64,000 nt of DNA from Mimachlamys varia. Taxonomy: Eukaryota; Mollusca; Bivalvia; Pectinida; Pectinidae. A program made the translations under genes and the position numbers. The stretch lies in the NCBI GenBank assembly GCA_947623455.1, contig OX392536.1:6815282-6879281 (forward strand), in the 5' to 3' direction. The notes under the pieces are model-generated. The model was given only the letters and a program-made list of their open reading frames with translations. It did not search any database and was not told the DNA's origin. Positions 16,426 through 63,845 of this stretch are shown piece after piece. The number at the start of each line of letters is the position of its first letter. The first letter of the stretch is position 1.

Positions 16426-16494
16426 TCATGGTATGCCTTGTCTGATTGGATATATTTATATAGTAATTTTGAGCAATAACATTAATGCAGTATA

Positions 16495-43659: not shown

Positions 43660-43805
43660 AGAGAATACCAAGAACAAACCCATAATCTGAATTCAAAATC
43701 GATTAGGCTAGGGGCAAGATACATGTATAAACAAAGGAAAGATTAACATGGAGACCCTTGTAAAAGTACAAGAGAATCAGACTAGGTGTTCCGGAAGAGT
43801 TCTTC
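43660..43805 (-). repeat. retroelement tail module (unit 1), reverse
   Basis: Reverse copy ending at GTTCCGGAAGAGT. The equivalent in unit 2 is 54,340-54,478. A forward copy follows at 44,075-44,345 (unit 2: 54,770-55,025), so each unit carries an inverted pair of modules 5' of the peptide gene. Confidence 0.85.
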
Positions 43806-44345
43806 CCGGATATGATACATGTCCAGGCTAGTTCATTACACCAATAGGATGTGGTGATTGGTGATAAATTTTAAGCTTCGATAATCTGATATTTTTATCT
43901 AACACAAAAACATGTATAACCATACACATACACATTTCAACTCAATTTATCGTGTAATCCCTTTTCAACCTTCATACCTGGCCCTCTTATATCATCGAGT
44001 TAGATTGTCCCAATCGTGGTATCATTGGTAAAGATCCTGTTTCATTGTATGTTACGAAGGTGAAACGTTATGAATATATTTAATAATATGTCTTCTTGTT
44101 GTGGTTGAGAATTGTGCCTCCTTTCTCACTTGGAGGCTATGACATTTATTTGAATGTTATCTACATTTACATGATTGATGTCATCGATGAAGCAGACACT
44201 TTCTCTCCCGAAACATCTGGTCTTATTCTCTTCTACCTTTTCAAGGTTCGTCGTATAAATATTTCCTTTGTTCATATGTTGCCCCTAGTGTAATCGATTT
44301 TGAGCTCGGAGTTGGGTTTTGTTGACACTTCAGAATTCTCTGATT

Positions 44346-45379
44346 GTTTTCGGAGGCACACTCATGATAAGCTGTAATCAGTCTGCATGTCTAGTATGAA
44401 TAAAATAAAGCTTTGACCATCAGAAATTCTCTGAAAGTTATACAAAACCACATTTCAGATATCTCGTGTGATAAAAATTAAAATATTACTGAAATTGATA
44501 TGTCTGAGTCATGTTTTCTAATGACAGTAACATATCTTAGTTACATGTAAGGCGTAACATGGATCAGAAATTCAAGACCAGAAATGTATTCGAATCGAGA
44601 AATTTCGAAATCTCAACGGATACTTTAAACGGTTGAGCTACTGTAACTCAAACTTTAACTTATGTAAAAAGTCGTCTGTGATCTACTCAATCCAATTCTG
44701 TTAATTTACTCTCTCCTTTGATAAAATGCAAAGATACATAAAACCCCATACCACTTTCCTTAGGTATATTTTGTCAGACACCTAATACAATAAGTAAGAG
44801 AGGCGAATTGACGGCAAGACTTGGGTCGGTGGGGGTCTCGCACCATCGAACTCGAGACTGATGCTGTATCCAGTTTATCTACATTTGTACATGCATCAGC
44901 CGGTTCAGATGTTCGACCTAATCAAGTTTCGCTACATTCAATTTTATTTCTAAACAATGATGTCAATGTGTATAAATAACGTTCAAATAACAAAAAATAC
45001 ATCAGGTAAAAATAAACAATTTCGACAAATTTAGATTTTAATGTATAAAAGAGCAGCAACAGGTTGACGCGATAGCAATCAGCTTATTGATAAATCAATT
45101 ATTTCAATTTTTGAAATCATCAATATATTGCGATCCAATACAACATACTAAAAATGTACTTGTTATTTAAACTTCTTTTTTAAAATAATATTGTTTATAT
45201 ATTTGTTGCCGTTTGCCACGAATCCATTAATTGATTTGATACATATGTACGTATATGTGTTTTATTCATTTAAAAAGCCTTAAAGTCGAAATAATAATTT
45301 TAAAATATGAATATGCACCAAATTTAGATTTAAAAACTGTTAATTGAAAGGCGACAGGTTGTAGAAATTGACACCAGCT
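44346..45379. other. upstream region of peptide gene 1
   Basis: Collinear with 55,026-56,242. A TATAAAAGAGCAGC word at about 45,046 is altered to TATGAAAGAGCAGC in unit 2, so it is unlikely to be the main promoter. No other gene seen. Confidence 0.5.
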
Positions 45380-45387
45380 TATAAATT
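45380..45387 (+). promoter_or_regulatory. TATA box of peptide gene 1
   Basis: TATAAATT, 96 bp upstream of the ATG. The same spacing to the ATG is kept in copy 2 although about 15 bp differ just upstream. A TCACACT initiator-like word lies about 30 bp downstream (about 45,409), implying a 5' UTR of some 65 nt. Confidence 0.6.
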
Positions 45388-45475
45388 GAGTTGTATACAC
45401 GTCCCTTCTCACACTCATACCGAGAGTTCTCCTGACGTTGTCCTAGCTTACAGCATACAACATCATCCTACAGAG

Positions 45476-48400
45476 ATGAATATTTCTCTTTTTCTGTTGC
45501 TGGTTGTGGCGATTCCAATGGTGCTCGCAGGGAGGTGGAGAAACAGAGAAAGAGGTATGTGTATTCCGATTGTCAATGTTTACTTAAATGATAACAATAT
45601 AATTGCTTTAATATACACAATTGACCGGACATTTGTTTGTTTGATCTGGCTCGACTTGGGCATATTAATGTATAATCACAATGTATTTTCAGTTTGATAA
45701 TTGTACAAAAAGCACATATGACAATAACCCCATTATAATTATGCATAAGGTAAATTGTTCTTATTGAATCATAAAAACAAAATATGAATACAAATGATAT
45801 AATTGCAAAACATATTGGTCAACAGGGATTTTGAAATAAAACAGTGGTACCCAACACCTTTCATTTCGAAGAGTAATGGCACGGTACATAATATACTCAT
45901 TTTCGTAGTACACAGTTTGAAGAACTAGTTTAATTTTACTTCTAAATTCATAAATTAAACGGGTTTTACGCACCTACCCTTACCCTTCTGCTTAGAAATG
46001 TTTGATTCCAACCTTTTAGCCCCTAGCATCACTGAAGAATTCTAGGATGACGAAACAGCTGTATGATGCAGTTTATTTCATTTTTTTCGGTGGTATACTG
46101 TATCTATAACTTAATTAAAAGGTGCAGCACATGTGTGTGTTACGTCATATTGCATGATAGGGGATGGCAGACTATCCTGGTGGATGTTTTAGTCCCCGAG
46201 GTTTGCTGGAGCCTCCGAAGCTACAGTTAACTCATTTGAGTAGTGGCACGGTACAAATTTTCGTAGTACACGATTTGAAATTCTACAGTACATATTTAAT
46301 GTTGCATCTGCATTAATAAATCAAATGGGTTTTACGCACATGACCCTTCTGCTTCTACATTTCCACATTTAAAAATTTTGGATTCCAACCTTTTGGCCGC
46401 TGTCATCTCTAAAGAGTTCTAGGAGGACGACGAAACATCTGTATGATCGAGTTTCATTATTTTTTTCGGCATACTGTATCTATTACTAAATTTAAAAAGT
46501 GCAGCATATGCGTTTGTTACGTCATCTTTGAAATGATGGAGTTTAGGGGCACCTTGCTATTAAAGTCCTACAAAAATATCAGTTATATCAGCGGAGGGAC
46601 GTAATGAAAGGAAAATGCAAAGGCAAATTCCATACGATTCTGGTAAATATCGTTTAATGACCCAATATACGTAACTTTCAGCAATAAATGAAACAAACAT
46701 TAAGCATTTGTTAATATCAGCAATTTTTAAGATAAATTCCTAAATAGGTATCGGTTCACCAGCAGTTGAAACTCGGTATTTGTAAACTTGCTTCCATTTG
46801 GACATGCCGTCTAACTTGTGGTGCACACTTATATTATTTCTAACTTTTTAAAATTTTCTGTCAGGACTTTTTTGTAGTAACCGCTCAGATGTAATTCGTT
46901 TTAGCTTTATTTTTGTATTGTTATCAACTGGGGTTTAGGAATGTTTCAGAATCACGAAAAAACAAATCCCTGAAGATACGTATATTTTGCCTTAAATATA
47001 AAAACAATCAAAACAAAAAATAAAGTTCGGGGTCACGTCCTGCACAAAAATCAGTTTTAACATACAAATTTAATTTAGATTTTTAAACACTAAATATGAT
47101 TCTGGTGAATATCGTTTAATGACTGTTAAATGTATATATAATTGATTTAATTTAAATTCCATTTCTATTTGTTAATTAAACTATTTCCGCCTGTTAACTA
47201 TGCTCATGTCTGTTTTGCAACAAAAGAAACCAAGCAGTCTCCAAACAAACAAAAATACAACTTGCCAAAGGAAAAGGCGCAGTAAAGTAAGTGTAGGTTA
47301 ACAACGCTATATGAAGTCAAATTGAGAAGAAAATAACACTGTTATATGAAAGCCACAATGTCAGATTCAATATATTCATTTATTCATTTAATAAACAAGA
47401 TAGATTCAGGATCATTCTTGATGTATTTTCATAAACCGTTTATTTGAACCAAACACTAAAACTCGGGATCACTTTTAAGTCCTAAACAAGAATCAGTTTT
47501 AGAAATACAAATATCGCTTATTTTAGTTTTATTTAAAAGCACAGCTTCCGGGCAAAGTTCTTGAATAGTAGCACATGCATGCCTAAACAAGGTTGCTTCC
47601 CCTGCTATCCTTTCTTGGTTTTTTTTTGGTTTTTTTTTTTGGCCGGAAGTAATAATCCATTTAGGAAACCGGAAACACGTCACACAATTACGTTACGTAA
47701 CACAATTACGCTTCATCACATTCAGCTTCCATCGACAGACATTATCAATGTCTGATGCATTCATCGCTGTCATTGTTTCAGAAGCTGGGTTGTTTTGGGG
47801 TATTTATGACTTGCCGACTTAAACCTTGAATTTATGGAAATTGTATCTCTTTCTGAAACGGTCCATGGATGATTCTCAGTAAATATCAGAGATTAACAAT
47901 AAAGTTACGCACTTTTAAGGCTTTGTCTTTGACATTTTGTTCCTTCAAACTGCATATATATATATATTACAGCAGACGATGACATACAAACGCAGGACAC
48001 ATTGAAGGACCGTGCAGAGGGGAAAAGTCGTCGTGGAACCGAAGTCGATGTTGGTTAGTTTTGCACAGCTTAACGGAACCAAAATGTCATATATTTGATT
48101 TATTTTTGTTTACCTATACCTAAAAGTACATTTAAATGTATACATTCCAAAACGCTTTGGTATTCTCTGATTGTTTTCCACAAAACCTCTCGATTTGAAG
48201 AGTAATATCAACCTTAGTTTAATTTTTAAATTTTAATATATATATATCTAACTAACAATTGTTATTCAAAGGATAGCACTTTTGTAAATAAGGTAAGGAC
48301 AAATCTTACTGGCTAAAAATGCAACAACTCATTCTTCTTCCTAAATTATTCCAAACAGAACAAACAAATAGCATGTATTTGAGCAGGGAATTCATTAGAG

Positions 48401-49264
48401 AATGTGTGAATCAGTTACATATGGACGCTGATTGTGCTTGAGTTGACGTCAGTTCTGGAACAAGTATAAATGTAACTTTCTAACATAACAATAAATATTA
48501 TTTTCTCTGAACAACTTGCTATTATTGAAGACGCTTACTCTTCCGGAACACCCTGTCTTATTCTCTTGTACTTTTACCAGGGTATCTATGTAAATCTTTC
48601 CTTTGTTCATATTTTGTCCCTAGTTTAATCGATATTGAGTTCGGAATATGACTTGGTTAACGCTTCGGTATCTCTATTTTTAAAATTGTACGTCATTAAG
48701 AGAAAAAATCAGTTTTTAATCTTTGTTTACAATTTTTTTTTTTCATGACAGGCATCAATAAATCGAATTGGGACATGGAAAGGAAAATATTTTCAAACAG
48801 AAAGCGTACGCTTGTTATGGACCCAACTTCCTCTCCCAAAAACTTCGTCGGGTTTATATGTCCACTCGGTGTTTGGGTAATAATTTGACTAAACCAAATT
48901 ATTAAATAGATTAACATATCAGATACACTCTAGGTTTTTTAAATTATAGATATATACAATTACTGCCTTTTTAACAATGGCAATTGCGTATGCTCTGAAT
49001 TTTGAATTAGCAAGAGTCATAATAACGCTTTCTAACTCTATAAGTCAATATTTGAAGTACGAAAAACACCTTTGATTTTTGTTATTTAACAAATTGTGGA
49101 AGAACATACAACAAACTATTTTCGGAAATTGCAGAAATATGTTATGAGTTACTCTGTGTATTCAATATAGGCTTAACAGTACCATTTACCTTTTGACATT
49201 ATTTTAAATGGAGGCATGAAAACCAACTTTAGCAATTTTGTTTTCTTAGGCGTGTTATGCTTGA
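45476..49264 (+). CDS. secreted peptide precursor, copy 1 (spliced)
   Basis: Exons: 45,476-45,554 (signal peptide MNISLFLLLVVAIPMVLA then GRWRNRER); optional 46,592-46,642; 47,973-48,053 (acidic, ADDDIQTQDTLKDRAEG, then KSRRG); 48,752-48,876 (basic, NRKR site, PKNFVGFICPLGVW); 49,250-49,264 (ACYA, stop). Introns before exon 3 are all phase 1, the next is phase 0. Length is 99 residues, or 116 with the optional exon. Consensus GT/AG sites support every junction; the weakest is the exon 3 donor (GG then GTAATA). A signal peptide, an acidic propeptide and dibasic sites indicate a processed secreted peptide. Cleavage after NRKR would leave 27 residues with a C-X6-C loop. The family is not recognised. 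If another exon 3 donor is used (phase 1), the frame reaches exon 5 (51,295), where this copy has a 1-nt deletion relative to copy 2. Intron 1 hosts a dimeric retrozyme-like repeat. Confidence 0.6.
45870..46560 (+). mobile_element. retrozyme-like tandem dimer in intron 1 of copy 1
   Basis: Two head-to-tail units of the ribozyme-bearing family. Unit starts are at 45,871 and 46,238, a period of 367 bp, with ribozyme cores 377 bp apart. Shared words are AGTGGCACGGTAC, TTTTACGCAC, CCTTTTGGCC and GTGCAGCA. Head-to-tail copies each with a hammerhead are the genomic form described for metazoan retrozymes. Confidence 0.8.
46026..46069 (+). ncRNA. type I hammerhead motif, first unit
   Basis: GCATCA; CTGAAGA (46,032-46,038); degenerate stem II ATTC/TGAC; GAAA (46,052-46,055); GTA cleavage triplet (46,061-46,063); TGATGC, which pairs perfectly with GCATCA. 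Core and stem I are perfect, but stem II is weak (two pairs at most). The second unit's motif (46,404-46,449) reads CTAAAGA with a three-base insertion before GAAA and is dead. Confidence 0.7.
46592..46642 (+). CDS. exon 2a of copy 1, shortened
   Basis: Counterpart of the 81-nt exon 2a of copy 2, lacking its first 30 nt and the original acceptor. A substitute AG (46,590-46,591) would start the exon exactly where the frame is kept (phase 1 in, phase 1 out, 51 nt). The donor TCTG followed by GTAAAT is intact. The substitute acceptor has no pyrimidine tract, so the exon may be skipped; skipping also keeps the frame. Confidence 0.35.
48536..48685 (+). repeat. retroelement tail module in the intron before exon 3 (copy 1)
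   Basis: Forward copy from GAAGACGCTTACTCTTCCGG to CGCTTCGGTATCTC. The unit 2 equivalent (59,812-59,935) has lost part of the end. The insertion therefore predates the unit duplication. Confidence 0.85.
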
Positions 49265-49419
49265 GAAGTGGATCAGCACAAGGTACCAGGTAACATTTGT
49301 AATACAATCAAACATAACTGGTGTAGTAAAACAACATTGCAACATAAAATGTTTTGTGGTTGACACAAAAATCCTCTTCAAACCTGCATAATGTACAAAT
49401 ATAAAATAATAATCATTTA

Positions 49420-50850
49420 TTACATTTTTACCAGTGAAATATCGAAAACCTTTCATTCTATAAAAGTGATATTTTTCACTAGTGGGAAATATAATCTTTT
49501 TCACTAGTGAAAAATATCACTTTTTCTTCTTTGAACAATTAAAACCCTGCTTACAAATGACGTTTGGGAAAATCAGAAGCTGCCACTGTAGATTTTCATA
49601 TAAAAATGCAATAAACAGAATATCAAACATTATTAATTAACTACTTGCATATTGACAAAAATATGAGAAAACTGCCCAATCAATATCAAAACAAAGGTGT
49701 GCCAATATGAAGTAAACTGGGCCAATATCGACGAACTGGGCCAATATGGGATAAACTGGGCCAATATCTATAATGCGCCAATCGAACGCACACTAAACTG
49801 TTCGGAACATTTCTACACTTATTAGCGATAACTACACACAAACTCGAGACCGACAACGTTCACTTTAGTACCGCCTTATTGCATGATTTGACATCGACAG
49901 AAGACAACAAACTATAAACAGAGCACTCAACAGCTCCACCAAAACGCCGAGTTTAGAAATGATTGAGAAATGAATGACATGAAATAACTTTAGGCTGGAT
50001 ACAAAGTGTTACGTGAGTAAGCCAATCATTGCCTGATATCGCAGTAGTACATAATCCGATTCGGATCCTCATCCTGCTTCGTTATCATTACGAAGCAGGA
50101 TCATAATCGGATCAGTATTCAAATATTTGATCACTTTTTGCATACATTCTTTTAACACAATAAATGTCTCAATAGAATAGTAATAACAACGAAGTTTCCT
50201 TAGAATTGATAACTATAGTTTTATTTGTCCTTGTGATTAGTTTTGAAGATCTAATTCACCAGAAATTGCGATTCAAACTCAAAAGTCTGTACAAAACAAA
50301 AAGAATTATCTTCGAGTAGAGTGAACTTGACTATAAAATACTTTAAGTCCTACAATAAAACATAGAAAAAAATGTTTTACCTTTCAAGAATATAAATGAA
50401 ATTAAGTCAGTATATGTTTAGTTTACAGGAGGAAACACCTGAACTACACGTATGTTTTGAATTTGTTGTTAATAAAATTTGTTTAATTTATGCATTTTTT
50501 TTTATTTTTTAAATTTTAATTATCGCCAATATTAAATATGCAAGTAGTTAATTAATAAAAGTATCATTAATCAGCTAATCCACATTGCCCCAGTTATTAG
50601 GCCTCGGTTTGTCACATTAGCCCTCGGCCTGCGGCCTCGTGCCAACATGACAGATCTTGGCCTAATAACTGGGCCAATATTGAATTAGCTGATTAATAAC
50701 CCTATAGTATCTTCAGTAATACCAAACATATTGTCTCGTGTGGCTAATATTTTGATATTTTTCACGAGTGCGAATATTTCAAAATATTAGCCCCACTCGT
50801 GAAATATATTTGGTATTACTGAAGACACTGTTATATATCCTCTATATATG
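49420..50850. mobile_element. nested fold-back insertion in the last introns of copy 1
   Basis: Absent from the same intron of copy 2 (empty site near 60,640). Outer element: same composite as 24.82-25.18 kb, with CACTAGTGAAAAATATCAC palindromes at 49,460-49,525 and a fold-back at 50,700-50,845. Into it is inserted a TIR element with perfect 22-bp inverted ends (49,632-49,653 and 50,535-50,556). Next to that is a small fold-back with 14-bp perfect ends ATTAATCAGCTAAT (50,566-50,697). Confidence 0.8.
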
Positions 50851-51294
50851 AAAATATTAATGTAGATATGTTAATGAATACAGTTTTCTTATATTTACAC
50901 CCAAAATGAAAATTGTAAAGCATTACTTTGGTGTATTAAAGGTAAAATGTCCAGGCATAGATATTTCATTGATGCTAGGATGCAATTATTCACTTACAAG
51001 TATATGGTAATATCCAGTCGCAGAAAAATGTTAAAAATGCTAGAAAAACATAGTTTTTTGGCCACGACAAGACTTATGTGTGAAAATTAATTTGCGTAAT
51101 TTTGAAAAAGCACATATAATTCACAAATGTGATACGGCAAAGTAAATGGAAATCCAGTTGATAATGCTATGTTGTGGTGCCTTGTTTTTTTTCAAACTAC
51201 ATGTATCGCAAATTGATTTTCAAACTCAAATCTTACATATCCAATAATACCAAGATGACAACTGAAATCATATTTTCATTTTATTTTCTTTCAG

Positions 51295-51405
51295 ATCATT
51301 TCAAGGATACCGTTGTGGCTGTTGATTATAAAGCTTTCGCAGTTCGAAAATAGTAGTAATGTGTAAAAAGATTAAACAGACGAAATAAAACATCAACATA
51401 TATCA
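51295..51405 (+). other. terminal exon and poly(A) signal of copy 1
   Basis: A strong acceptor (TTTATTTTCTTTCAG) opens the last exon; AATAAA lies at 51,384-51,389. The 33-nt exon 4 (49,250-49,282) joins it through an AAG/GTACC donor. With the preferred frame this exon is 3' UTR. Confidence 0.55.
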
Positions 51406-51689
51406 CATTTTTGATTTCCCTTTTTTATAAATAACAATCTTCGGCCTTGGCACAAATAACATTACAGCGATACAAGCAATTTTATAATCATAATACATAC
51501 ATTTATATCAACATGGATTTAAAAAAAATGTGTTGATATATTATGAATATTGATCCCTGTTTTTACTTTGATGTGATTAGCTATTATCTCGATATTGACT
51601 GATATACATGTATGTTGCCCATAAAGGACAACGCTATAGTATTGCCACTGCAAACTACAAATAGCCAAAGAAGACTTTTAAATATACAT

Positions 51690-52060
51690 GTTCATGTATG
51701 GTAGAAATATCAGCTCAACCGACGACAAATATATATCAATTATGGACCTTTGCTGAGGCCAATATGATGTTATACCGACCTGGTAGAATCAAATATTAAC
51801 GCCCTATATTCAATATTTTAGATTCTACCAGGTCGGTAAAATCACCATTTTGACCGAATCAAAGGTCCTTAATTTTTATATTAGATGTGAAACTTGTTTG
51901 CAAAATACTTAATTGAATTAAATCTGTCTTGATAAAGAAATGAAATTTACAGTTGCATGCATGGGTACTATAAAGTCACAATAATTATGACGACACAAAT
52001 GCAATATTTACTCGGTGTTTCTAAAAATAGAAACATCACGTTGATATCACAAAATATGGA
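51690..52060. mobile_element. repeat block related to 11.69-12.03 kb with hairpin
   Basis: Similar words in the same order as the block at 11.7 kb. It contains a perfect 18-bp inverted repeat TACCGACCTGGTAGAATC (51,773-51,790 and 51,821-51,838). The unit 2 equivalent is 61,500-61,870, with the hairpin at 61,580-61,597 and 61,628-61,645. Confidence 0.7.
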
Positions 52061-52942
52061 CCTTCATGTGACCATGTTTTAACCAATGAGAATTGAGGAA
52101 ACTCAGACCACATGTCACATATTGTGTCATCAAATACAATGGAAACATAACATAAGTAGACGGTTAAGAATAACATAATGAGTTTGGAGCGATACAAATT
52201 AAACAGTATTCATGATTAAAACAATTCTAAGGACCGAGTCATTGTAAATCACAACAAGTAAACACACTAATGAGCGTACTGAAAAACTTCATATCACTTA
52301 AAGATCCAAATAGTTCTCAATGAGACAAAACTTGCAACCATAAAGACCCCCACTCGCTAGCATCTACGCAAACATGATGTATTAATATAAACTGAAATAA
52401 CTGGTTTCATAATTTGTGTTTTCTGTATTGTTAGATTTTCCTTTAGCAATTGAAATGTACAATAGTATTCATGATATTTCAAGTATATTCTCGTATCAAA
52501 ATTAATAATCACTATGAAAATACCCACAGTTTTGAAGGAAAAGCTTGTTATATCAATATACGAAGAACATATTTGTGGTAGGGGTAGGTGAAATATACAA
52601 ATTACAATAGAAGCTCGCGAGGGAAGTAGAGGAAATTGAAATAGTCATTAATCAATTTGATTTAAATACTAGAAATAAATACACGATCAACATTGTCAGA
52701 GTAGCTATAATGTCCTGTAAAATATTTTAGATACAGTTGTCAGCGAAATTCAAGAACTTTCGAAGTTTTCATTGAAATAGTTTAACCACTTCTGACATGT
52801 TCATTAATATATACAGTAAAAAAAATACAGTTTAACGAAAACAAAACAATTCGGTCGGACCAAGAGTATTTTGTCTTAAGGTAGATTCCCTATCGTTTTC
52901 TAAACTCTTATGGCACAATTGTAAACAAGGAGTTCAAGAAAA

Positions 52943-53112
52943 CTTTGGTTTGGTTAATTTTGTTTTATGTCCTATTAACAGCCAGGGTCATTTCAGGACG
53001 TGCCAGGTTTTGGAGGTGGAGGAAAGCCAGAGTACATGGTGAAAAACCACTGACCTACGGTCAGTACCTGGCAACTGCCCAACGTGGGATTAGAACTCGC
53101 AACCCAAAGCTC
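52943..53112 (-). mobile_element. SINE family A, headless copy in unit 2
   Basis: Same SINE as 42.45 kb, but the tRNA head upstream of box B is deleted. The sequence jumps from CGCAACCCAAAG to CTCCTTTATTGATATC, whereas unit 3 retains the whole head between these words. Confidence 0.8.
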
Positions 53113-54339
53113 CTTTATTGATATCATTACAATTTTACACAGTGGAATATGCCTTTAACATGTCGATCGAATCATGGTCTGGAGACTGTAGTTTAATAAA
53201 ATATTTTAATTAACATTTTAATCAACATGGCTTAAGTTATGTAGGCGATGTAGAACTCGTTGGCTTCATGCCTTTAATAAGATCGTCACCTCGTGTTTAA
53301 CAATGACACGTGCTCATATTCTAAATAAACAAATCCCCATCTCCTGTATTGATTTACTTATCAAATTTGAACATTTGATAGATCTAGTGTCTGACTTTTA
53401 ATCAAAATAAGTTAATACATAAGCAGCAAAAATTCGGACTCTTCACTGTCCGCCGGATATAAGATACATATAGTGTAACGATATAAAATCGGGATTTATT
53501 TAAGCCATAGCTTAATTGATGCTGACGAGTTATGTTTTGAAAATCCAGTTTTGATTTCTGCTTAACACATACTTATACAAAATGTATGTGTTGTAAACAA
53601 CTATTTCTTTACTTGTCTTAAAAAGTGTTTTAATTACTTCAAAACTATATTTTGTATTTTGAAGTTAGAATTTTGTAATATGACTTTAGAAGGCATCAAT
53701 TAAAGTTTAAATGTAGATACTGTCACGGTGATTCCTTTTAAAAGTAAATTTTATAGACTGAAACTGACTTCCAAACATTCATGCAATATGGCTATTATGG
53801 AAACTGCTTGCAAAATAATAAGAGCATCAAAATAAGTTCTGGTGTTTTAGGCGAAGGGATTTACGTGCATCCATGACTCTTTGGCGTGAAATACAAATAA
53901 TTTAATTTTGTTTAAAACAAGCATTTTCATTGGTTTAAAAAGTTATGTTATAAGCCCTTAACGTAAAAAATGGCGTCAACGTTTTTAACGTCGCTTTTGA
54001 TTGGTTGATGCTGCAGCGAATCAATTTGTAAGAGAAAGGAGTCCAGCAGTAAAGTTAATATTCGCAGGGTATAGATTAAATTATAAGGATTAACTTCGCG
54101 GTTTATTTAGAGTACAATCCGGTTTTTTGTGTTATAAGCACATAATATGAAAATAGATTCAAGTTTATCCTTAATGAAATAAAACCACCATTAAGCCCAC
54201 ATGTCACAGTAACATTACGTATTACTACTAATAAACAAACAAACAAAACTAACTCGAATTCTCAAAGCTGTCTTAGCTTTATCTTTAATACCAGATTGAA
54301 TACAATTTGTTATAAGACAATGCATTTGCGAGAAAAAAA
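53113..54339. other. unit 2 sequence without gene
   Basis: Collinear with 42,656-43,659 except for the unit-specific insertion at about 53,875-54,075. Confidence 0.6.
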
Positions 54340-55025
54340 TAGAGAATACCAAGAACAAAACCATTATCCGAATTCAAAATCGATTAGACTAGGGGCAAGA
54401 TATAAACAAAGGAAAGATTTACATAGAGACCCTGGTAAAAGTACAAGAGAATAAGACCAGGTGTTCCGGGAGAGTTATTCCCGGACATGGCACATGTCAA
54501 GGCTACATATGTAGTTCATTACACCAATAGGATGCGGTGATTGGTGATCAATTTTAAGCTTCGATTATCTCTGATATTTTTATCTAACACAAAAACATGC
54601 GTAACCATACACATACACAGAACTCAATTTATCGTGTAATCCCTTTTCAACCTTCATACCTGGCCCTTTTATGTCATCGAGTTGGATTGTCCCAATCGTG
54701 GTATCATTGATAAAGATCCTGTTTTAATGTATGTTACGAAGGTGGACGTTATGAATATACTTAATAATATGTCTACTTGTTGTGGTTGAGAATTGTGCCT
54801 CCTTTCTCACTTGGAGGCTATGACATTTATTTGGATGTTATCTACGTTTACATGATTGATGTCATCGATTTAGCAGATACTTTCTCTCTCTCGAAAATCT
54901 GGTCTTATTCTCTTCTACCTTTTCAAAGTTAGTCGTATAAATATGTTCTTTGTTCTTATTGTGTCCCTCGTGTAATCGATTTTGAGCCCGGAGTTAGGTT
55001 TTGTTGACACTTCTGTCTCTCTGAT
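54340..55025. repeat. inverted pair of tail modules (unit 2)
   Basis: Reverse copy at 54,340-54,478 and forward copy at 54,770-55,025, collinear with 43,660-44,345. Confidence 0.8.
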
Positions 55026-56242
55026 TGTTTTCGGAGGCACACTCATGATAAGCTGTAATCAGTCTGTGTATCTTGTATAAATGAAATAAAGATTTGTCCG
55101 TCAGAAACTCTTTGAAAGTTATACTAAACCACATTTCAGATATCTCGCGTGATAGAAATTAAAATATATCTGAAATTGATATATCTGAGTCATGTTTTCT
55201 AATGACAGTTACATATCTTAGTTACATGTAAGTCGTAACATGGATCAGAAATTCAAGACCAGAAATGTATTTGAAGCGAGAAATTTCGAACTCTCAACGG
55301 ATACTTTTACCAACTTTTTTATCTTACACCAATGCACTAAAAAAAAACTAAAAAAAAACAACCTTATCCATTTTTTCAATCACGCCTCTTTGCAACCAAC
55401 CCCTTCACTATCCATGATCATCAATATTGATGGAGGACTGTAAATATATGAAGATGAAGATACTTTACACATTTGAGCTACTGTAACTCAAACATTGGCT
55501 TATGTAAAAAGTCCTCCGTGATCTACTCAAACAAATTCTGTTAATTTACTCTCTCCTTTGATAAAATGCAGGGATACATAAAACCCAATACCACTTTCCT
55601 TAGGTATATTTTGTCAGACACCTAATACAATAAGTCAGAGAGGACGAATGCACTGCAAGACTTGGGTCGGTGGGGGTCCCGCACCATCGAACTCGAGACA
55701 GATGGTGTATCCAATTTATCTACATTTGTACATGCATCAGCCGGTTCAGATGTTCGACCTAATCAAGTTTCGCTACATTTAATTATATTTCTAATCAATG
55801 ATGTCAATGTGTATAAATAACGTTCAAATAACAAAAAATACATCAGGTAAAAATAAATAATTTCCACAAATTTATATTTTAATGTATGAAAGAGCAGCAA
55901 CAGGTTGACGCGATAGCAATCAGCTTATTGATAAAGATCCGGTCAATTATTTCAATTTTTGAATTCATCAATATATTGCAATCCAATACAACATACTAAA
56001 AATGTACTTGTTATTTAAACTTCTATTTTTAAATAATATTGTTTATATATTTGTTGCCGTTTGCCACGAATCCATTAATTGATTTGATACACATGTACGT
56101 ATATGTGTTTTATTCATTTAAAAAGCCTTAAAATCGAAATTATAAGTTTAAAATATGTATTTGTTCCAAAGTTAGATTCAAAAACTGTTAATTGTAAGGC
56201 GACAGGTTGTAGAAATTGACACCAGCTTGTTATTACATTTTC
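55026..56242. other. upstream region of peptide gene 2
   Basis: Collinear with 44,346-45,379. A copy-specific A-rich stretch at about 55,310-55,440 creates an ORF (55,240-55,443) without domain. Confidence 0.5.
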
Positions 56243-56250
56243 TATAAATT
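56243..56250 (+). promoter_or_regulatory. TATA box of peptide gene 2
   Basis: TATAAATT, 96 bp before the ATG, as in copy 1. Confidence 0.6.
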
Positions 56251-56338
56251 GAGCTGTATATACGTCCCTTCTCACACTCATACCGAGAGTTCTCCTGACG
56301 TTGTCCTAGCTTACAGCATACAACATCATCCTACAGAG

Positions 56339-59300
56339 ATGAATATTTCTCTTTTTCTGTTGCTGGTTGTGGCGATTCCAATGGTGCTCGCAGGGAGGTT
56401 TAGAACTGGAGGAAGAGGTATGTTTTTTTCCGACTTCGTGTTAATGCTTAATTAAATAATAATAATAAGATTGTTTTAATATCCATAATTGACCGGATAT
56501 TTGTTTGTTAATAAGCAGCAGGTTCTGGCTCGTCTTGGGGATATTAATGTATATTTACATTTGCGTTGCAACCCACTATATGAACATTACCAGCAAAAAT
56601 ACCTTTCATAAAAGTGTGAAAGCAGTGGTTCTCGAGACTTAGCACGTGGTTTAATTATGACGTTATAGATCAAGCTTGTTCACTGAGAGTCGTGTCGCTC
56701 CGCTTCGAATAACATAGAGAATGCCCTTGCGTCAAACGCTCAAATGCCTAATTATTATCATTGGCGCCAATTTTATTCAAGCTGGGCTGTTCCGACAATG
56801 TCGTTTAAATGACGACACAAATACAAATGCAGGTAATAAATTATTAATTGGCAAAAATATAATTGAAGTTAAGCAATTGTTCTATAGCACTATAAAGGTT
56901 AAAAAATGACTTTCAATCCTTATATAATCAAACTGTATTTTCAGTTTGAAGATTGTACAAAATAAAGCACATATGACAATAACACCATTATAATTATGCA
57001 TAAGATAAATTGTTCTAATTGAATCATCAGGTAAAATATCAATTCAAATTAGGAATACTAGAGCAAAAACTGTTGATACCACAATTAACATGAGTAAAAA
57101 ATATAATTGCAACAGGAATTTTGAAATGAAACAATGGTACCCAACACCTTCGTTTCAAAGAGTAATGACACGGTACATAATATACACATTTTCGTAGTAC
57201 ACGATTTGAAGAACTAGTTTAATTTTACTAAGTCTACATTAGTTTAGACATTTTTGATTCCAACGTTTTAGCCCCTAGCATCACTGAAGAGTTCTAGGAT
57301 GACGAAACAGCTGTACAATGCAGTTTTTGTCGGCGGCATACTGTATCTATTACTAAATTAAAAGGTGCAGCACATGTGTGTGTTACGTCATCTTTCATGA
57401 TAGGGGATGGCAGACTCTGCTGGTGGATGTTTTTGTCCCCGAGGTTTGCTGGAGCCTCCGAAGCTACAGTTAACTCATTTGAGTAGTGGCACGATACAAA
57501 TTTTAAAATTAATTTAAAATTATACAGTACATATATAATGTTGCATCTACATTAATAAATCAAAGGGGTTTTACGCACATGACCCTTCTGCTTCTACATT
57601 TCCACATTTAGAAATTTTGGATTCCAACCTTTTGGTCGCTGTCATCTCTAAAGGCTTCTAGGAAGACGACGAAACATCTGTATGATCGAGTTTAATTATT
57701 TTTTTTCGGCATACTGTATCTATTACTAAATTTAAAAAGTGGAGCATATGTGTGTGTTACGTAATCTTTAAAATGCGTTTATTAAAAAAAATGGAGTTTA
57801 GGGGCACCTTGTTATTAAAGTCCTACACAAATATTAGTTTTAAATACATATATACTTTAGATTTGTATACAATTGGTTTCCTTCACAGAAGACGATGTTA
57901 TTAAAACTGCAGACAGAGCGGAGGGACGTAAGGGATGGAGAATGCAAAGGCAAATTCCAAACAATTCTGGTAAATATCGTTTAATGACCCAATATACGTA
58001 ACTTTCAGGAATGAATGAAGCAAACATTAAGCATTTATCTGATATCAGCAATATTCAGCATAAATTCCTACATAAGTATCGGTAAGCCAGCAGTTGAAAT
58101 TCGGTATTTGTAAACTTGCTTCCATTTAGACATGCAGTCTAACTTCGGCTTGTTGTTTTCGTGGTCAACACTTATATTATTTTTATTTTGTTTTAATTTT
58201 CTGTCAGGATTATTTTTGTAGTAACCGCTCAGATTTAATTCGTTTTAGCCGTATTTTTGCATTGTTTTCAACTGGGGTTTAGGAATGTTTCAGAATCACG
58301 AAAAAAATCCCTGAAGATACGTATATTTTGCCTGAAATATAAAAACAATCAAAACAAAAAATACAGTTCAGGGTCACTTTGCCATTGACATCCTGCACAA
58401 AAATCTGTTTTAAAATACAAATATGATTTAGATTTTTTAACACTAAATATGATTCTGGTGAATATCGTTTAATGACTGTTAAATGTATATATAATTGATT
58501 TAATTTAAATTCCATTTCTATTTGTTAATTAAACTATTTCCGCCTGTTAACTATGCTCATGTCTGTTTTGCAACATAAGAAACCAAGTCTCCAAACAAAC
58601 AAAAATACAATTTGCAGAAGGAAAAGGCGCAGTAGAGTAAGTGTAGGTTAACAACGCTATATGAAGTCAAATTGCGAAGAAAATAACACTGTTATATGAA
58701 AGCCACAATGTCAGATTCAATATATTCATTTATTCATTTAATAAACAAGATACATTCAGGATCATTCTTGATGTATTTTCATAAACCGTTTATTTGAACC
58801 AAACACTAAAACTCGGGATCACTTTTAAGTCCTAAACAAGAATCAGTTTTAGAAATATAAATATCGTTTATTTTAGTTTTAATTTAAAAAGCAACTTCCG
58901 GGCGAAGTTCTTGAATAGTAGCACATGCATGCCTCAACAAGGTTGCTTCCCCCTGCTATCCTTTCTTGTTTTTTTTTTTTATCATTTTCGTAAGGAAGTA
59001 CATATGTAGTAATCCAGTTGGGAAACCGGAAACACGTCACACAATTACGTTACGTAAACAATTACGCTTCATCACATTCAGCTTTCACCGACAGACATTA
59101 TCGATGTCTGATGCATTCATCGCTGTCGTTGTTTCAAAAGCTGGGTTGTTTTTGGGTATTTTTGACTTGCCGACTTAAACCTTGAATTTATGGAAATTGT
59201 ATCTCTTTCTGAAACGGTCCATGGATGATTCTCAGTAAATATCAGAGATTAACAATAAAGCTACGCACTTTTAAGGCTTTGTCTTTGACATTTTTTCCAT

Positions 59301-60506
59301 TCAAACTGCATATATCTATTTTACAGCAGACGATGATATACAAACGGATGACACAGTGAAGGACCGTGTAGAGGGGAAAAGTCGTCGTGGAACCGAAGTC
59401 GATGTTGGTTAGTTTTGCACAGCTTAACGGAACCAAAATGTCATATATTTGATTTATTTTTCTTTACCTATACCTTAAAGTACATTTAAGTGTATACATT
59501 CCAAAACGCTTTGGTATTCTTTGATTCTTTTCCACAAAATCTCTCGATTTGAAGAGTAATATCAACCTTGGTCTCATTTTAAAATCAAACTATTGCTTGT
59601 TATTCAAAGGATAGCACTTTTGTTAATAAGGTAACGGCAAATCGTACTGGCTAAAAATGCAACAACTCATTCTTCTTCCTACAATATTCCAAACAGAAGC
59701 AGCGAATACATTAGAGACTGTGCTTGAGTTGACGTCAGTTCTGGAACAAGTATAAATGTAACTTTCTAACATAACAATAAATATTATTTTCTCTGAACAA
59801 TTTGCTATTATTGAAGACGCTTACTCTTCCGGAACACCCTGTCTTATTCTCTTGTACTTTTACCAGGGTATCTATGTTAATCTTTCCTTTGTTCATATTT
59901 TGTCCCTAGTTTTGAGTTCGGATTATGATTATTATTTTGTTCAAATTGTACGTCATTAAGAGAAAAAATCAGTTTTTAATCCTTGTTAAATTATCTTTTT
60001 TTCATGGCAGGCATCAATAAACGGATACGGGACATGAAAAAGAAAATAATTTCAAACAGAAAGCGTCTGGTTGTTATGGACCCATCTGTCTTTCCTAAAA
60101 ACTTCGTCTGGATTATATGTAAACCCGGTGCTGTGGTAATAATTTAACTAAACCAAATTATTAAATAGATAAACATATCAGATACACACTAAGTTTTTTT
60201 TAAGTATAGATAAAATACAATTACTGCCTTTTTAACAATGTATTTTGAATAAGCAAGAGTAATAATAACGCTTACTAAGTCTATAAGTCAATATTTGAAG
60301 TACGAAACACACTTTTGGTAATTGTTATTTAACAAATTGTGGTATAACATACAACAAACTATTTACAGAAATCGCAGAAATATGTTATGATTTACTCTGT
60401 GTGTTCAATATAGGCTTAATAGTACCATTTACCTTGTGACATTATTTTAAATTGAGGCATGAACACCAACTTTAGCATTTTTTTTTCTTAGGCGTGTTTT
60501 GCTTGA
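56339..60506 (+). CDS. secreted peptide precursor, copy 2 (spliced, most intact)
   Basis: Exons: 56,339-56,417 (signal MNISLFLLLVVAIPMVLA, then GRFRTGGR); 57,889-57,969 (exon 2a, EDDVIKTADRAEGRKGW…); 59,327-59,407 (exon 2b, ADDDIQTDDTVKDRVEG, KSRRG); 60,011-60,135 (basic; INKRIRDMKKKIISNRKR, then MDPSVFPKNFVWIICKPGAV); 60,492-60,506 (ACFA, stop). Length is 126 residues. All sites are GT/AG, with phases 1-1-1-0. The signal peptide is identical to copy 1. The region after NRKR would be a 27-residue peptide with a C-X6-C loop. Alternative exon 3 donors (T/GTAAAC at 60,118 or G/GTGCTG at 60,127) are phase 1 and would continue through exon 4 into exon 5, ending …EGYRCGC at 61,130 with four cysteines. 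Only cDNA can decide. Function is unknown; a host-defence or signalling peptide is an inference from architecture. Confidence 0.6.
57160..57800 (+). mobile_element. retrozyme-like tandem dimer in intron 1 of copy 2
   Basis: Same dimer as in copy 1, with ribozyme cores at 57,284 and 57,648. It predates the unit duplication. Confidence 0.8.
57278..57321 (+). ncRNA. type I hammerhead motif
   Basis: GCATCA; CTGAAGA (57,284-57,290); stem II GTTC/TGAC with loop TAGGA (three pairs); GAAA (57,304-57,307); GTA (57,313-57,315); then CAATGC, which pairs at four of six stem I positions. The core is intact and stem I weakened. The second unit's motif (57,643-57,689) reads CTAAAGG and is dead. Confidence 0.7.
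57889..57969 (+). CDS. exon 2a of copy 2
   Basis: 81 nt, phase 1 on both sides, acceptor TTTCCTTCACAG, donor TCTG followed by GTAAAT. It encodes EDDVIKTADRAEG, then a basic part (RKGWRMQRQIPNNS). It has the same length, phase and acidic start as exon 2b (ADDDIQT…DRVEG), so the two arose by exon duplication. It is already included in the whole-gene entry and is listed separately because its use is optional. Confidence 0.55.
59812..59935 (+). repeat. retroelement tail module in the intron before exon 3 (copy 2)
   Basis: Equivalent of 48,536-48,685, shortened at its 3' end. Confidence 0.8.
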
Positions 60507-61098
60507 GAAGTGGAGCAGCACAAGGTACCTCATTTGTAATAAGATCAATTATAACTTATGTAGTAAAACAACATTGCAACATAAAACACAAAAATCTTCT
60601 TCAAACCTAAGTCATGTACAAATATAAAAAATAATAATCATATATATAAATATACATGTAGATATGTTAATGAATACAGTTTTTATATAAATTTACACCT
60701 AAAATGAAAAATGTAAAGCATTACTCTGGTGTATTAAAGGTAAAATGTTCAGACATAGATATTTTATTGATGATAGGATGCAATTGTTCACTTACAAGTT
60801 TATGGTCATGTCCAGTCGCAGAAAAGTGTTAAAAAATGTGAAAAAAAACATTGTTTTTTGGCCACGACAAAACTTATTTGTGAAAATTAATTTGCGTAGT
60901 TTAAAAAAAAAACACATATAAATCAGAAATATGAAACGGAAAAGTAGATGGAAATCCAGTTGCTAATGCTATGTTGTGGTGCCTTGTTTTTTTTTTCAAA
61001 ATACATCTATCGCTAATTGATTTTCGTACTCAAATCTTACACATCCGGTAATACCAAGATGACAACTGAAATCATACTTTCATTTTATTTTCTTTCAG

Positions 61099-61210
61099 AT
61101 CATTTAGAGGGATACCGTTGTGGCTGTTGATTATAAAGCTTTCGCAGTTCCAGAATAGTTGTAATGTGTAAAAAGATTAAACAGACGAAATAAATCATCA
61201 ACAAATATCA
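61099..61210 (+). other. terminal exon and poly(A) signal of copy 2
   Basis: Acceptor TTTTATTTTCTTTCAG; AATAAA at 61,189-61,194. It is 3' UTR in the preferred frame. In the alternative frame it supplies the end DHLEGYRCGC. Confidence 0.55.
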
Positions 61211-61499
61211 CATTTTTTCTTTTTCTTTTTTTATAGATAACAATTTTCGGCATTGGCACAAATAACATTACAGCGATACAAGCAATTTTATAATCCTAAT
61301 ACATACATTTATATCAATATGGATTAAAAAAGAAATGTATTGATAAACCATTATTATTGATCCCTGTTTTTACTTTATGGTGATTAGCCATTATCTCGAT
61401 ATTGACTGATATACATGTATGTTGCCTATAGAGGACAATGTTACAGTATTGCCACTGCAAACTACAAATAGCCAAAGAAGACTTTTAAATATACATGTT

Positions 61500-61870
61500 C
61501 ATGTATGGTAGAAATATCAGCTCAACCGACGGCAAATATATATCAATAATGGACCTTTGCTGAGGTCAATATGATGTTATACCGACCTGGTAGAATCAAA
61601 TATTAACGCCCTATATTCAATATTTTAGATTCTACCAGGTCGGTAAAACACCATTTTGACCGAATCAAAGGTCCTCAAATTCTATCTTAGATGTGAAACT
61701 TGTTTGCAAAATACTTAATTGAATTAAATCTGTCTTGATAAAGAAATGAAATTTACAGTTGCATGCATGGGTACTATAACGTCACAAAAATTATGACGTC
61801 ACAAATGCAATATTGACTCGGTTTTTTCTAAAAATAGAAACATCAGGTAGATATCACAAAATATGAACCT
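61500..61870. mobile_element. repeat block with hairpin (unit 2)
   Basis: Equivalent of 51,690-52,060. The 18-bp inverted repeat is perfectly kept. Confidence 0.7.
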
Positions 61871-62249
61871 CCATGTGACCATCTTTTAACCAATGAGAAT
61901 TATGGAAAGTCAGACCACATGTGACATATTGTGTTATCAAATACAATGGAAACATAACATAAGTAAAGGTTTAAGGTTAAGCATAACATAATGAGTTTGG
62001 AGCGATACAAATTAAACAGTATTCATGATTAAAACAATTCTAAGAACCGAGTCATTGTAAATCACAACAAGTAAACACAATCATGAGCGTACATAAAAAC
62101 TTCATATCACTTAAGGATACAAAATAGTTCTCAATGAGACAAAACTGGCGACCATAAATTTGCTCATAAATGAAGACCCCCACTCGCTAGCATCTACGCA
62201 GACATGATGTATTAAAACTGGTTTTATAATTTTTGTTACTCTGTATTGT

Positions 62250-63590
62250 TACGATGGGTATTCCAAAAATAATGTCAATTGCATCGGTGCTCATATAGCG
62301 GAAGTGCTTTTGTTCATTTTAATTTGCTTTGCCCTTCAAAATACTCTCTGCCAGCTAGAACACCTTTTTAGCCGGTCAATCCATTTTTGGACGCATTTTT
62401 CATACTCTTCAATGGGTACACCCATCAGACACTGATAAACAGCAGATCAAAGGGCATTTCTCGAATTGTATTTCTACCAGATAAATTATATTTAAGTTTT
62501 GAAAAGAGAAAATAGTCGCAGGGGGCCAAGTCTGGCGAATACGGAGGGTGCGGAAGGACGGTATCCTTCTCTGACTCTAAAAAGTCAGTCACAATACGTG
62601 CCTTGTGAGCGGGTGCATTATCATGCAAAAGTCGGACATACTTAAGTCCTGTTTTGGGGCGGCGACTTTTGTAGTAGTTTTTCAACTTTCTCAGAACAAC
62701 GTTTTTATAGAACTTGCCTGTGACCGTTCTGCCTTTTGGCACCGGGATTTGAATAGCTGGACCCTTATTAGTGAACAAAATAGCATATAAAACCTTCTTT
62801 ACCGTTCGTATTCGTTTGGCAATACTTGGGCCTCTGGCATTTATTAGTGGCCCATTTTCGGTTGGCAAATTTCCGCTTTGGTTCAAAATAATACACCTAG
62901 GTCTCATCACCAGTGACTATATTATCAAAAGCCTTTTTACTATATTTTGGGTACATTTTGAGAAGTTTTTGTTGCCATTGTTACACGCGTCTTCTTTTGC
63001 TCATCCGTTAACAAATGGGGTATCCATCTTGCATTTATCTTTCTAACTTTTAGGTGTGTCTTCAAAATTGCATGAACTCTTGTTAACGACAAGTTTGTCA
63101 TTCGCGCCAATTGTCTTACGGTGAATCGAGCATCAGTTTGGAGGATATTTCGGATTTTTTCTATGTTATCTTTGGTCGTAGTTGATGCAGGACGACCTGG
63201 GTGAGCAGCATCTTTCAGTTGCTGCTGACCAGCACTAAATTTACCTACCCACCTACAAACAGTCCTGTGAGACATTACGCCTTCCCTATAAATGTCACAC
63301 ACCTCGCGGTGAATATCTACAGCCTTTATGCCGAGTAATGACCTACCTTTTATAAAGGCCCTAATTTTAAGAACATTTTCACCTCGTTTTCCTGTGATTT
63401 TGTGTCTTGTCTACAGAATAGGCTATGGAACGATGTACACTGTACCGAGGCCAGTGAACATGTGGACGAGATATTTACCTGTGTCACGAGCCAGGGATCA
63501 CGTAATCGACACGAGGTGGTTTTGTGTATAAATTGCACGATTTCCGCGAAATAAAGCACAGATGACATTATTTATGGAACACCCCTCGTA
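62250..63590 (-). mobile_element. mariner-type transposon, inactive
   Basis: About 1.34 kb, flanked by TA. The terminal inverted repeats are 62,250-62,277 and 63,563-63,590 (24 of 28 bases pair; ends TACGA). It encodes a degraded transposase on the reverse strand. It sits between unit sequences that correspond to about 52,437 and 52,906, so about 470 bp of unit DNA is missing at the insertion. Confidence 0.9.
62425..63302 (-). pseudogene. mariner transposase, DD34D, broken
   Basis: N-terminal part (63,302-62,940) has helix-turn-helix features: SHRTVCRWVGKFSAG, the HPGRPAS linker, then VRQLARMTNLSLTRVHAIL. The catalytic part keeps the first Asp in IVTGDET (about 62,910), then HDNAPAHKA (second Asp) and SPDLAPCDYF (third Asp). 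There are 34 residues between the second and third, as in mariner. Breaks: a stop directly after TGDET where mariners have Trp, and frameshifts near 62,950 and 62,790. It acted on TA targets by cut and paste; this copy is dead. Confidence 0.9.
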
Positions 63591-63626
63591 TGGCACAATT
63601 GTAAACAAGGAGTTCAAGAAAACTTT

Positions 63627-63845
63627 GGTTTGGTTTTTTTTGTTTTATGTCCTATTAACAGCCAGGGTCATTTAAAGACGTACCAGGTTAAGGAGGTGGA
63701 GGAAAGCCGGAGTACCCGGTGAAAAACTACTGACCTACGGTCAGTACCTGGCAACTGCCCAACGTGGGATTAGAACTCGCAACCCAGAGGTGGAGGGCTA
63801 GTGGTAGAATGTCCGAACACCTTAACCACTCGGCCGACGCGGCCC
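63627..63845 (-). mobile_element. tRNA-derived SINE, family A, full copy in unit 3
   Basis: Same insertion as in units 1 and 2. Box A is intact and the box B core is mutated (GAGTTCTAATCCC), shared with unit 2. Confidence 0.85.

Follow-up and report, generated by a model that had tools for sequence, protein, structure and literature searches.

A tandem cluster of four predicted secreted prepropeptide genes with a variable mature exon in Mimachlamys varia

Locus organization and the predicted precursor

The window, by which we mean the whole 64,000-nucleotide stretch of Mimachlamys varia DNA analysed here, contains two tandem units of about 10.5 kb each, which hold gene copies 1 and 2, and the beginning of a third unit.

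42405..52904, + strand: tandem unit 1 with gene copy 1 (self-comparison)
52905..63584, + strand: tandem unit 2 with gene copy 2 (self-comparison)
63585..64000, + strand: start of unit 3 (self-comparison and genome search)

The initial annotation had described tandem secreted-peptide genes, a description that our analysis supports, and its two copies became four: copies 3 and 4 lie in the same assembly just outside the window, with exon 1 of copy 3 just beyond the window end at genome position C10:6881834. Five probes were compared with the 975 Mb assembly, and each returned these four loci and no others. A mariner-like element sits inside tandem unit 2, near the 3′ end of the unit. The exons of copies 1 and 2 are as follows.

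45380..45386, + strand: copy 1, TATA-box-like TATAAAT (copy alignment)
45476..45554, + strand: exon 1 of copy 1, with the signal peptide at 45476-45535 and then a variable tail
46592..46642, + strand: copy 1 exon 2a, first 30 nt and original acceptor gone, rest of the frame open
47973..48053, + strand: copy 1 exon 2b, 27-residue module
48752..48876, + strand: copy 1 exon 3, RKR site, variable mature region, donor GTAATA
49250..49264, + strand: coding end of copy 1 in exon 4, with the second cysteine of the predicted ring and the stop codon
51295..51400 (end approximate), + strand: copy 1 exon 5, most likely 3′UTR, AATAAA at 51384-51389
56243..56249, + strand: copy 2, TATA-box-like TATAAAT (copy alignment)
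56339..56417, + strand: exon 1 of copy 2, with the signal peptide at 56339-56398 and then a variable tail
57889..57969, + strand: copy 2 exon 2a, 27-residue module
59327..59407, + strand: copy 2 exon 2b, 27-residue module
60011..60135, + strand: copy 2 exon 3, RKR site, variable mature region, donor GTAATA
60492..60506, + strand: coding end of copy 2 in exon 4, with the second cysteine of the predicted ring and the stop codon
61099..61205 (end approximate), + strand: copy 2 exon 5, most likely 3′UTR, AATAAA at 61189-61194

The TATAAAT of both copies is what we take, from the general consensus, to resemble a TATA box.

The additional copies settled the 3′ end, since all four retain GTAATA as the donor of exon 3, and joining exon 4 to it yields a cysteine followed by a stop codon. 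For copy 3 this join would use an exon 4 acceptor of its own, which was chosen by eye and falls just below the pyrimidine filter of the scan. Given this junction and the exon 4 stop, each precursor ends, past RKR, in a predicted mature peptide of 27-30 residues, and a C-x6-C spacing is found in all four copies; the two cysteines are predicted to form a single C-terminal disulfide ring. The coding part thus probably ends in exon 4, and exon 5, at which the initial annotation ended its gene span (61130), most likely belongs to the untranslated 3′UTR.

A different 3′ end, with the exon 3 donor placed 8 nt further upstream and both exon 4 and exon 5 translated, would give a four-cysteine product ending in YRCGC near the previously annotated end, and copy 2 does yield a clean 140-residue frame in this way. 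In the exon scan, phase-1 exon 4 and the shorter form of exon 3 also take ranks 1 and 7 among 109 rows, a list from which the 125-nt form of exon 3 is missing because only symmetric exons were kept. However, the excess of differences runs on through the eight disputed bases, three of which differ, and halts at GTAATA; if the exon 4 donor common to the copies is used, copies 1, 3 and 4 lose the exon 5 frame. Because copy 3 lacks the early donor and the exon 5 frame is intact only in copy 2, we rejected this splice model as the main one and regard it as very improbable. An alternative native donor at 49290 puts exon 5 of copy 1 in frame; it is weaker in copy 3 and absent from copies 2 and 4. Approximate donor scores, calculated from general donor-site frequencies, favoured neither splice model decisively.

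With the exon 4 ending, the precursors run from charged modules through RKR to a near-neutral, cysteine-bearing C-terminus. RKR is invariant among the four copies, and seven columns of the 27-30 in the mature region are also invariant (M, P, K, F, C, C and the last A). The net charge of the mature peptides is 0 in copy 1 and +1 in copy 2 and, judged by eye, about +2 in copy 3 and about +1 in copy 4; most membrane-active antimicrobial peptides differ in charge from such nearly neutral peptides. In the precursor, the signal peptide would be followed by a short basic tail and by one or two charged 27-residue modules, each encoded by a symmetric phase-1 exon; next would come a basic segment that closes with S[N/D]RKR, and finally the 27-30-residue peptide with its putative single C-x6-C ring. 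The signal peptide would route the precursor into the secretory path, where a furin-like protease could cleave after RKR, the ring would close and the short peptide would be set free.

Exon divergence and tests of selection

When the differences between copies 1 and 2 were recounted, the initial figures were reproduced for the signal peptide (0/60), exon 2b (5/81) and exon 3 (24/125). By the Nei-Gojobori method, the 24 differences of exon 3 comprise 22.5 replacements and 1.5 silent changes, where 23 replacements had been counted before, and the six differences in the 19 bases of the exon 1 tail, all of them formerly taken as replacing, include five that do so. Exon 3 was likewise confirmed to be more divergent than its own flanks, taken as the 65 bases upstream (6/64) and intron 3 (29/354), with p=0.0015. 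Its 24 differences exceed those of all 4739 overlapping non-exon windows, the best of which has 23, and the non-overlapping non-exon blocks (39-40) have a mean of about 9.2 differences (sd 5.2, maximum 22). The divergence of exon 3 is above chance, yet divergence between copies 1 and 2 is patchy; the richest 125-column window, with 27 differences, starts within the tail of exon 1 and consists chiefly of intron 1. When all four copies are compared, exon 3 is the most variable of 13 segments, with 46 of 119 columns variable versus 13/64 and 90/328 in the flanks, and it is faster than the flanks at p<0.01 in four of the six copy pairs, the other two being 1-3 (p=0.11) and the converted pair 2-4 (p=0.54).

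In the proposed reading frame, which has no stop, 37.5 of the 41 differences between copies 1 and 2 are replacements (pN 0.147, pS 0.049). This replacement excess (one-sided Fisher p=0.024, binomial p=0.013) is absent from the other five frames (p at least 0.15). No indel occurs in the 361 aligned exon bases (exon 5 and the stretch missing from exon 2a are outside this count), versus about 4 expected from the introns (p=0.017), and copy 3, whose coding exons 3 and 4 differ in length by 6 nt and 9 nt, respectively, stays in frame. The frames are open in all four copies; by themselves they are weak evidence, because exon 3 stayed open in 32-55% of simulations in which 60, 40 or 24 substitutions were placed at random.

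For copies 1 and 2, omega is 6.8 in exons 3 and 4 (p=0.015) and 4.3 over everything but the signal peptide (p=0.0085), while one-sided counting tests gave 3.1 for copies 1-2 (p=0.028) and 2.8 for copies 1-4 (p=0.044), all of these p values being uncorrected. The exon 3 contrasts 1-2 and 1-4 amount to one, since copies 2 and 4 share this exon (2 differences in 126). The initial annotation had proposed dN/dS across more copies as a check on an accelerated mature region, and the outcome weakened the claim: omega was 1.58-1.73 in four data sets, not significantly above one (p 0.099 to 0.28), and 1.7 when copy 3 was added (p=0.19). Significance was confined to the 1-2 contrast and, in the counting tests, to 1-2 and 1-4.

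Such values, along with omegas of 0.93 and 1.17 for exons 3 and 4 in pairs with copy 3, could also come from a relaxed or partly decayed family, in which exon 3 would be near-neutral and its peak a stretch spared gene conversion between copies. Intron 3 of copy 3 is itself 22-23% divergent, copies 2 and 4 are near-identical across exon 3, and splice signals are damaged in copy 1, which lacks part of exon 2a, and in copy 4, where AA replaces AG before exon 2b. We nevertheless find decay fairly unlikely in view of the four open frames, the in-frame coding length changes, the invariance of RKR and both ring cysteines, and the omega of 6.8 in copies 1-2.

Probable gene conversion and a mosaic copy

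The identity of the signal peptide between copies 1 and 2, formerly described as frozen, is real but less telling than it had seemed. It belongs to a 138-nt identical run that also spans the 5′UTR, and since an intron holds a comparable run of 137 nt, it is not strong evidence on its own. In the 205-220 bases upstream, copies 1, 3 and 4 show no substitutions and two gaps per pair, and the identity of signal peptide and promoter is partly the result of recent homogenisation. Copy 4 is a mosaic, with a copy-3-like promoter, copy-1-like modules and a copy-2-like ring, the near-identical tract over exon 3 being common to copies 2 and 4. We propose that the mature exon would diversify among copies while unequal exchange and gene conversion would homogenise and reshuffle the remainder.

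It is conceivable, though we think it rather doubtful, that the locus is lineage-specific and that exon 3 serves as an exchangeable variable cassette, with conversion homogenising promoter, signal and pro-modules and moving whole exon 3 types between genes, and selection keeping the ring types apart. If this were true, the cassette locus would be a small germline diversification system with an undescribed ring-peptide family, acting in defence or in self/non-self recognition.

Possible role and comparison with known families

The interpretation that we prefer, and hold to be slightly better than an even bet, is a four-gene tandem cluster of diversifying secreted prepropeptides with a defence-type role. 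The near-neutral charge of the mature peptides and the lack of significance for omega once copy 3 is included weigh against it. For the earlier "defence or effector" reading, the pattern of exon 3 variability stands, whereas the role itself is something we infer, host defence or barrier effector being the likeliest. If expressed, the genes would form a compact secreted ring-peptide family for which the resources searched gave no credible match, and their four-copy array would display the exchange of a variable exon between genes directly. Such a family would supply new single-disulfide peptide scaffolds and give a small, readable case of germline diversification of secreted peptides in an animal.

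The low net charge, the single C-terminal ring and the sharing of exon 3 types by different genes would also suit a secreted signalling or recognition ligand (hormone-like, or for gamete or self recognition), that is, a short hydrophobic one-ring peptide acting on a receptor and not directed at microbes. A C-x6-C ring is also found in allatostatin-C type neuropeptides. Hormones are usually conserved, however, and here only seven columns are invariant in a mature region of 27-30, with Pfam and PDB giving no credible match; we judge such a ligand quite unlikely.

The initial annotation did not recognise the family, and we likewise obtained no credible homologue from Pfam, PDB or a protein set poor in multi-exon genes. 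At E up to 10, Pfam returned no families, whether queried with the four-cysteine model of copy 2 or with four segments taken from copies 1 and 2. Among PDB entries, a coagulation factor VII fragment (E 0.41) was taken as a chance match, and so were two perforin-like chains (E 0.67 and 1.6) that a profile built from the four mature peptides picked up. The protein-set search gave 15 word candidates, none with an E value up to 10, and the exon 3 reading frames of the two copies in the window gave no candidates. This absence is weak evidence because the set is probably poor in short multi-exon genes, which are unlikely to be present in it as whole proteins. The same set contains mariner-like transposases (2789 matches to the mariner query), and names are almost absent among the mariner matches listed (120 of 2789). 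Viral contigs scanned with the signal-peptide DNA gave no matches, sigma-70, tRNA and Rfam scans gave nothing, and a literature search for printed sequences gave nothing relevant, its sole matches being to one six-letter string.

In the cited excerpts, myticalins and modiocalins have a conserved signal peptide, a hypervariable mature region, a basic cleavage site and a phase-1 intron, and their genes are clustered, with pseudogenes (PMC5577615, PMC12294457). The four-gene cluster shares those traits. As far as these excerpts go, however, the mature part of myticalins and modiocalins is central, strongly cationic and without cysteine, and an anionic part is C-terminal, whereas here the variable part is C-terminal, near-neutral and, by prediction, ringed. 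Myticalins are described with three exons, the first 5′UTR-only, whereas the predicted coding sequence here spans five exons from the first detected one, and the myticalin signal consensus as published is unlike our signal peptide.

The excerpted account of CRP-I of Mytilus gives many sequence groups with a conserved signal and propeptide, dibasic cleavage and a variable mature region that is encoded by the final exon and evolves under positive selection (PMC10138031). The conserved signal peptide, the dibasic cleavage (predicted here) and the variable mature region recur in our genes, but CRP-I is portrayed there with a six-cysteine C-C-CC-C-C knottin array, and the mature region here has two cysteines. 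Myticin-C of Mytilus galloprovincialis, in the portion cited, has probably tandem genes, a less diverse signal peptide and omega above one in the mature and C-terminal regions (PMC3164099). Tandem genes and low signal-peptide diversity are common to both, and omega above one recurs here with significance for copies 1-2 only. By that account, myticin-C introns are more variable than its exons, with exon 2 close to the introns in variability, whereas here exon 3 exceeds its introns. The mature myticin-C peptide is cysteine-rich, with eight cysteines, unlike the peptides here.

Thanatin, in the section cited, has one disulfide closing a C-terminal eight-residue loop preceded by a hydrophobic segment (PMC7913509). 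The C-x6-C spacing of all four peptides likewise predicts an eight-residue C-terminal loop, here too behind a hydrophobic segment, but thanatin is given there as strongly cationic (pI 10.48; PMC7913509) and our peptides are near-neutral. No thanatin entry was among the two PDB matches to the mature-peptide profile. Frog skin precursors of the brevinin/temporin type, again from an excerpt, combine a conserved signal peptide, a charged propiece and, at the C-terminus, a hypervariable mature domain in which some sites are positively selected (PMC7106915). The conserved signal, charged propiece and variable C-terminal mature part are found here too; these precursors belong in all likelihood to another phylum, have another layout and gave no sequence similarity. 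The ranid "Rana box" ring is one residue shorter than the C-x6-C ring.

The gene copies and their reading frame

The predicted secreted-peptide genes belong to a tandem array, of which the window holds:

42405-52904, tandem unit 1, about 10.5 kb
52905-63584, tandem unit 2, about 10.5 kb
from 63585, unit 3, start only

The window was placed at C10:6815282-6879281 of an assembly of 975,302,275 bases in 71 contigs, where a 161-base probe (5′UTR and exon 1) matched four places: the two in the window (copies 1 and 2), C10:6881758 and C10:6894549. The same four genes alone were recovered with exon 3, the signal peptide and exon 2b, each searched as protein, and with exon 5 as DNA. When copy 2 exon 3 was the query, copy 3 appeared at a mere E=0.195, so that search sensitivity is limited and diverged relatives could be missed. 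Copies 3 and 4 were obtained from the adjoining 40 kb; the sample is four genes of one assembly and may include assembly or haplotype effects.

Left of unit 1, 41892-42398 is a remnant of another unit end that is 81-84% similar to the unit 1 end; the matches listed for it include no gene exon. On the minus strand of unit 2, a mariner-like element (62250-63590) has 28 nt terminal inverted repeats, 89% complementary; its transposase pieces (Pfam DDE_3; Mos1-type HTH) are split over two open frames, and it is therefore probably not intact. An interspersed repeat family has several copies in the window (45992-46148, 46369-46525 and others), including intron 1 of both genes, and a tandem repeat of period about 22 (15816-16492) contains long open frames, probably by chance.

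When copies 1 and 2 were compared in the frame proposed for exons 1, 2a, 2b and 3, no stops were found and 37.5 of the 41 differences were replacements (one-sided Fisher p=0.024, binomial p=0.013). None of the other five frames had a replacement excess (p=0.15 to 0.96), and one of them, on the minus strand, was stop-free too. The exon alignment over 361 bases, in which neither exon 5 nor the part of exon 2a missing from copy 1 is counted, contained no indels, where about 4 would be expected (p=0.017).

Exon modules and the predicted mature peptide

Exons 2a and 2b share a length of 81 nt and phase 1-1, and seem to have arisen by internal duplication. Four of six comparisons among the four stretches around them beat all 300 shuffles (scores 31-60; shuffled maxima 26-35), two did not, and their 27-residue peptides are similar (p=0.015, 5000 shuffles). 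The end of exon 2a with its donor is repeated inside intron 2a (47099-47123 and 58452-58476), probably left over from a further duplication of a module. Copy 1 exon 2a is without its first 30 nt and its original acceptor; the symmetry of the exon means that the frame would survive this loss via a later acceptor or exon skipping. In copy 4, exon 2b is preceded by AA; an AG follows three bases later.

The 3′ end can be read in two ways. A four-cysteine splice model takes exon 3 as 117 nt and exons 4 and 5 as coding. A scan for AG...GT pairs that are both conserved and symmetric in phase listed 109 rows, of which one segment may fill several, and ranked exon 4 first, exon 2b third and the short exon 3 seventh, a 125-nt exon 3 being outside its reach; the exon 4 row in phase 1 fits the four-cysteine model. 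However, the donor that this model needs, 8 bases before GTAATA, is missing from copy 3, while GTAATA itself follows exon 3 in all four copies. We thus favor the 125-nt exon 3 with a C-terminal ring, a predicted disulfide loop. Exon 4 in phase 0 then has cysteine as its second residue, followed by a stop (ACYA, ACFA, GCYILYA and ACFA in copies 1, 2, 3 and 4). In copy 3, exon 4 starts at 72325 (window coordinates continued past the end) and has 9 additional in-frame bases and its own acceptor, which was chosen by eye and lies just below the pyrimidine filter of an acceptor scan that gave eight others; its exon 3 has a 6-base gap that keeps the frame. From the GTAATA donor, the phase-0 exon 4 and these in-frame changes, the mature peptides after RKR are predicted to have 27, 27, 30 and 27 residues in copies 1-4, all with C-x6-C spacing and with seven invariant columns. 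As coding would end in exon 4, exon 5, with AATAAA, would be 3′UTR, and its single-base length difference between copies is of consequence only if it is coding. About 1.4 kb of copy 1 intron 4 (49433-50840), with short palindromic and repeat sequences, is missing from copy 2; a small part of this stretch has a match in copy 4.

Divergence, possible selection and homogenisation

Copies 1 and 2 show clear acceleration; in other copy pairs the signal is suggestive, and once copy 3 is added the ratio does not prove it. Recounting copies 1 and 2 reproduced the identical signal peptide (0/60) and the 5 differences in the 81 nt of exon 2b given in the initial annotation. The 24 differences in 125 nt of exon 3 also stood (21/117 with the earlier donor), but by Nei-Gojobori 22.5 are replacements and 1.5 silent, rather than 23 replacing; in the exon 1 tail, the 6 differences in 19 nt were not all replacing (5 replacement, 1 silent). 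Introns diverge by 6.6-10.4%. Fisher tests against pooled introns, which presuppose an even divergence although the actual one is uneven, gave p=0.00015 for exon 3, p=0.0037 for the exon 1 tail and p=0.0085 for the signal peptide; exon 2b did not differ significantly (p=0.68). Non-exon windows of 125 nt have on average 9 differences (variance 23), and none reached the 24 of exon 3, the highest having 23. An identical run of 138 nt covers the signal peptide, and one of 137 nt lies within an intron. Within exon 3 alone, replacement and silent sites did not differ significantly (two-sided p=0.10; binomial p=0.08).

Selection p values are nominal, uncorrected across tests. Without the signal peptide, pairwise dN/dS was 3.1 for copies 1-2 (one-sided Fisher p=0.028) and 2.8 for 1-4 (p=0.044), and not significant by the same test for 1-3 (1.3), 2-3 (1.2), 2-4 (1.5) and 3-4 (1.1). 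A purpose-written codon model, assuming a star tree though the copies have recombined, gave for exons 3 and 4 an omega of 6.8 (p=0.015) for copies 1 and 2, 1.17 for copies 1 and 3, and 0.93 for copies 2 and 3. A ratio above one with more copies aligned, proposed initially as a test, was not established: omega was 1.70 (p=0.19) in exons 3 and 4 of copies 1 to 3 together. With everything except the signal peptide it was 4.27 (p=0.0085) for copies 1 and 2 and a non-significant 1.58 (p=0.15) for copies 1 to 3; neither the whole coding part of copies 1 to 3 (1.68, p=0.099) nor exon 1 tail, 2a and 2b in four copies (1.73, p=0.28) reached significance. The claim that exon 3 is more diverged than its own flanks held for pairs 1-2 (p=0.0015), 1-4 (0.0015), 2-3 (0.0019) and 3-4 (0.0068), but not for 1-3 (0.11) or 2-4 (0.54).

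Copy 4 is a mosaic. In 300-column windows, its distance to copy 3 is about 1% ahead of exon 1; its distance to copy 1 is then 1-6%, for the most part 2-3%, as far as exon 2b, and its distance to copy 2 is 2-4% from there through intron 3; its exon 2b is still copy-1-like (2 differences, both silent) and the next 250 bases are 1% from copy 2. The upstream 205-220 bases have 0 substitutions among copies 1, 3 and 4. The signal peptide described as frozen is indeed identical, but because of this mosaic and the substitution-free upstream region, part of its freezing is attributable to recent homogenisation. Exon 3 may owe its peak of divergence to ring types (distinct exon 3 sequences) being held apart while the remainder is levelled.

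Likeness to known defence peptides

The family was not recognised at first, and this stands: Pfam has no family for the full earlier four-cysteine model or for four pieces, PDB gave no credible match, and a limited literature search turned up no published account of the family. Mussel and frog defence peptides are described as combining a conserved signal peptide with a variable mature region (PMC5577615, PMC10138031, PMC12294457, PMC3164099, PMC7106915), and those of mussels as forming gene clusters with pseudogenes (PMC5577615, PMC12294457). Against the features given there, each named family tested has at least one defining feature that these genes do not share. The arrangement here, known from the genes, would work like that of the mussel and frog peptides, and the one predicted C-terminal ring resembles that described for thanatin (PMC7913509).
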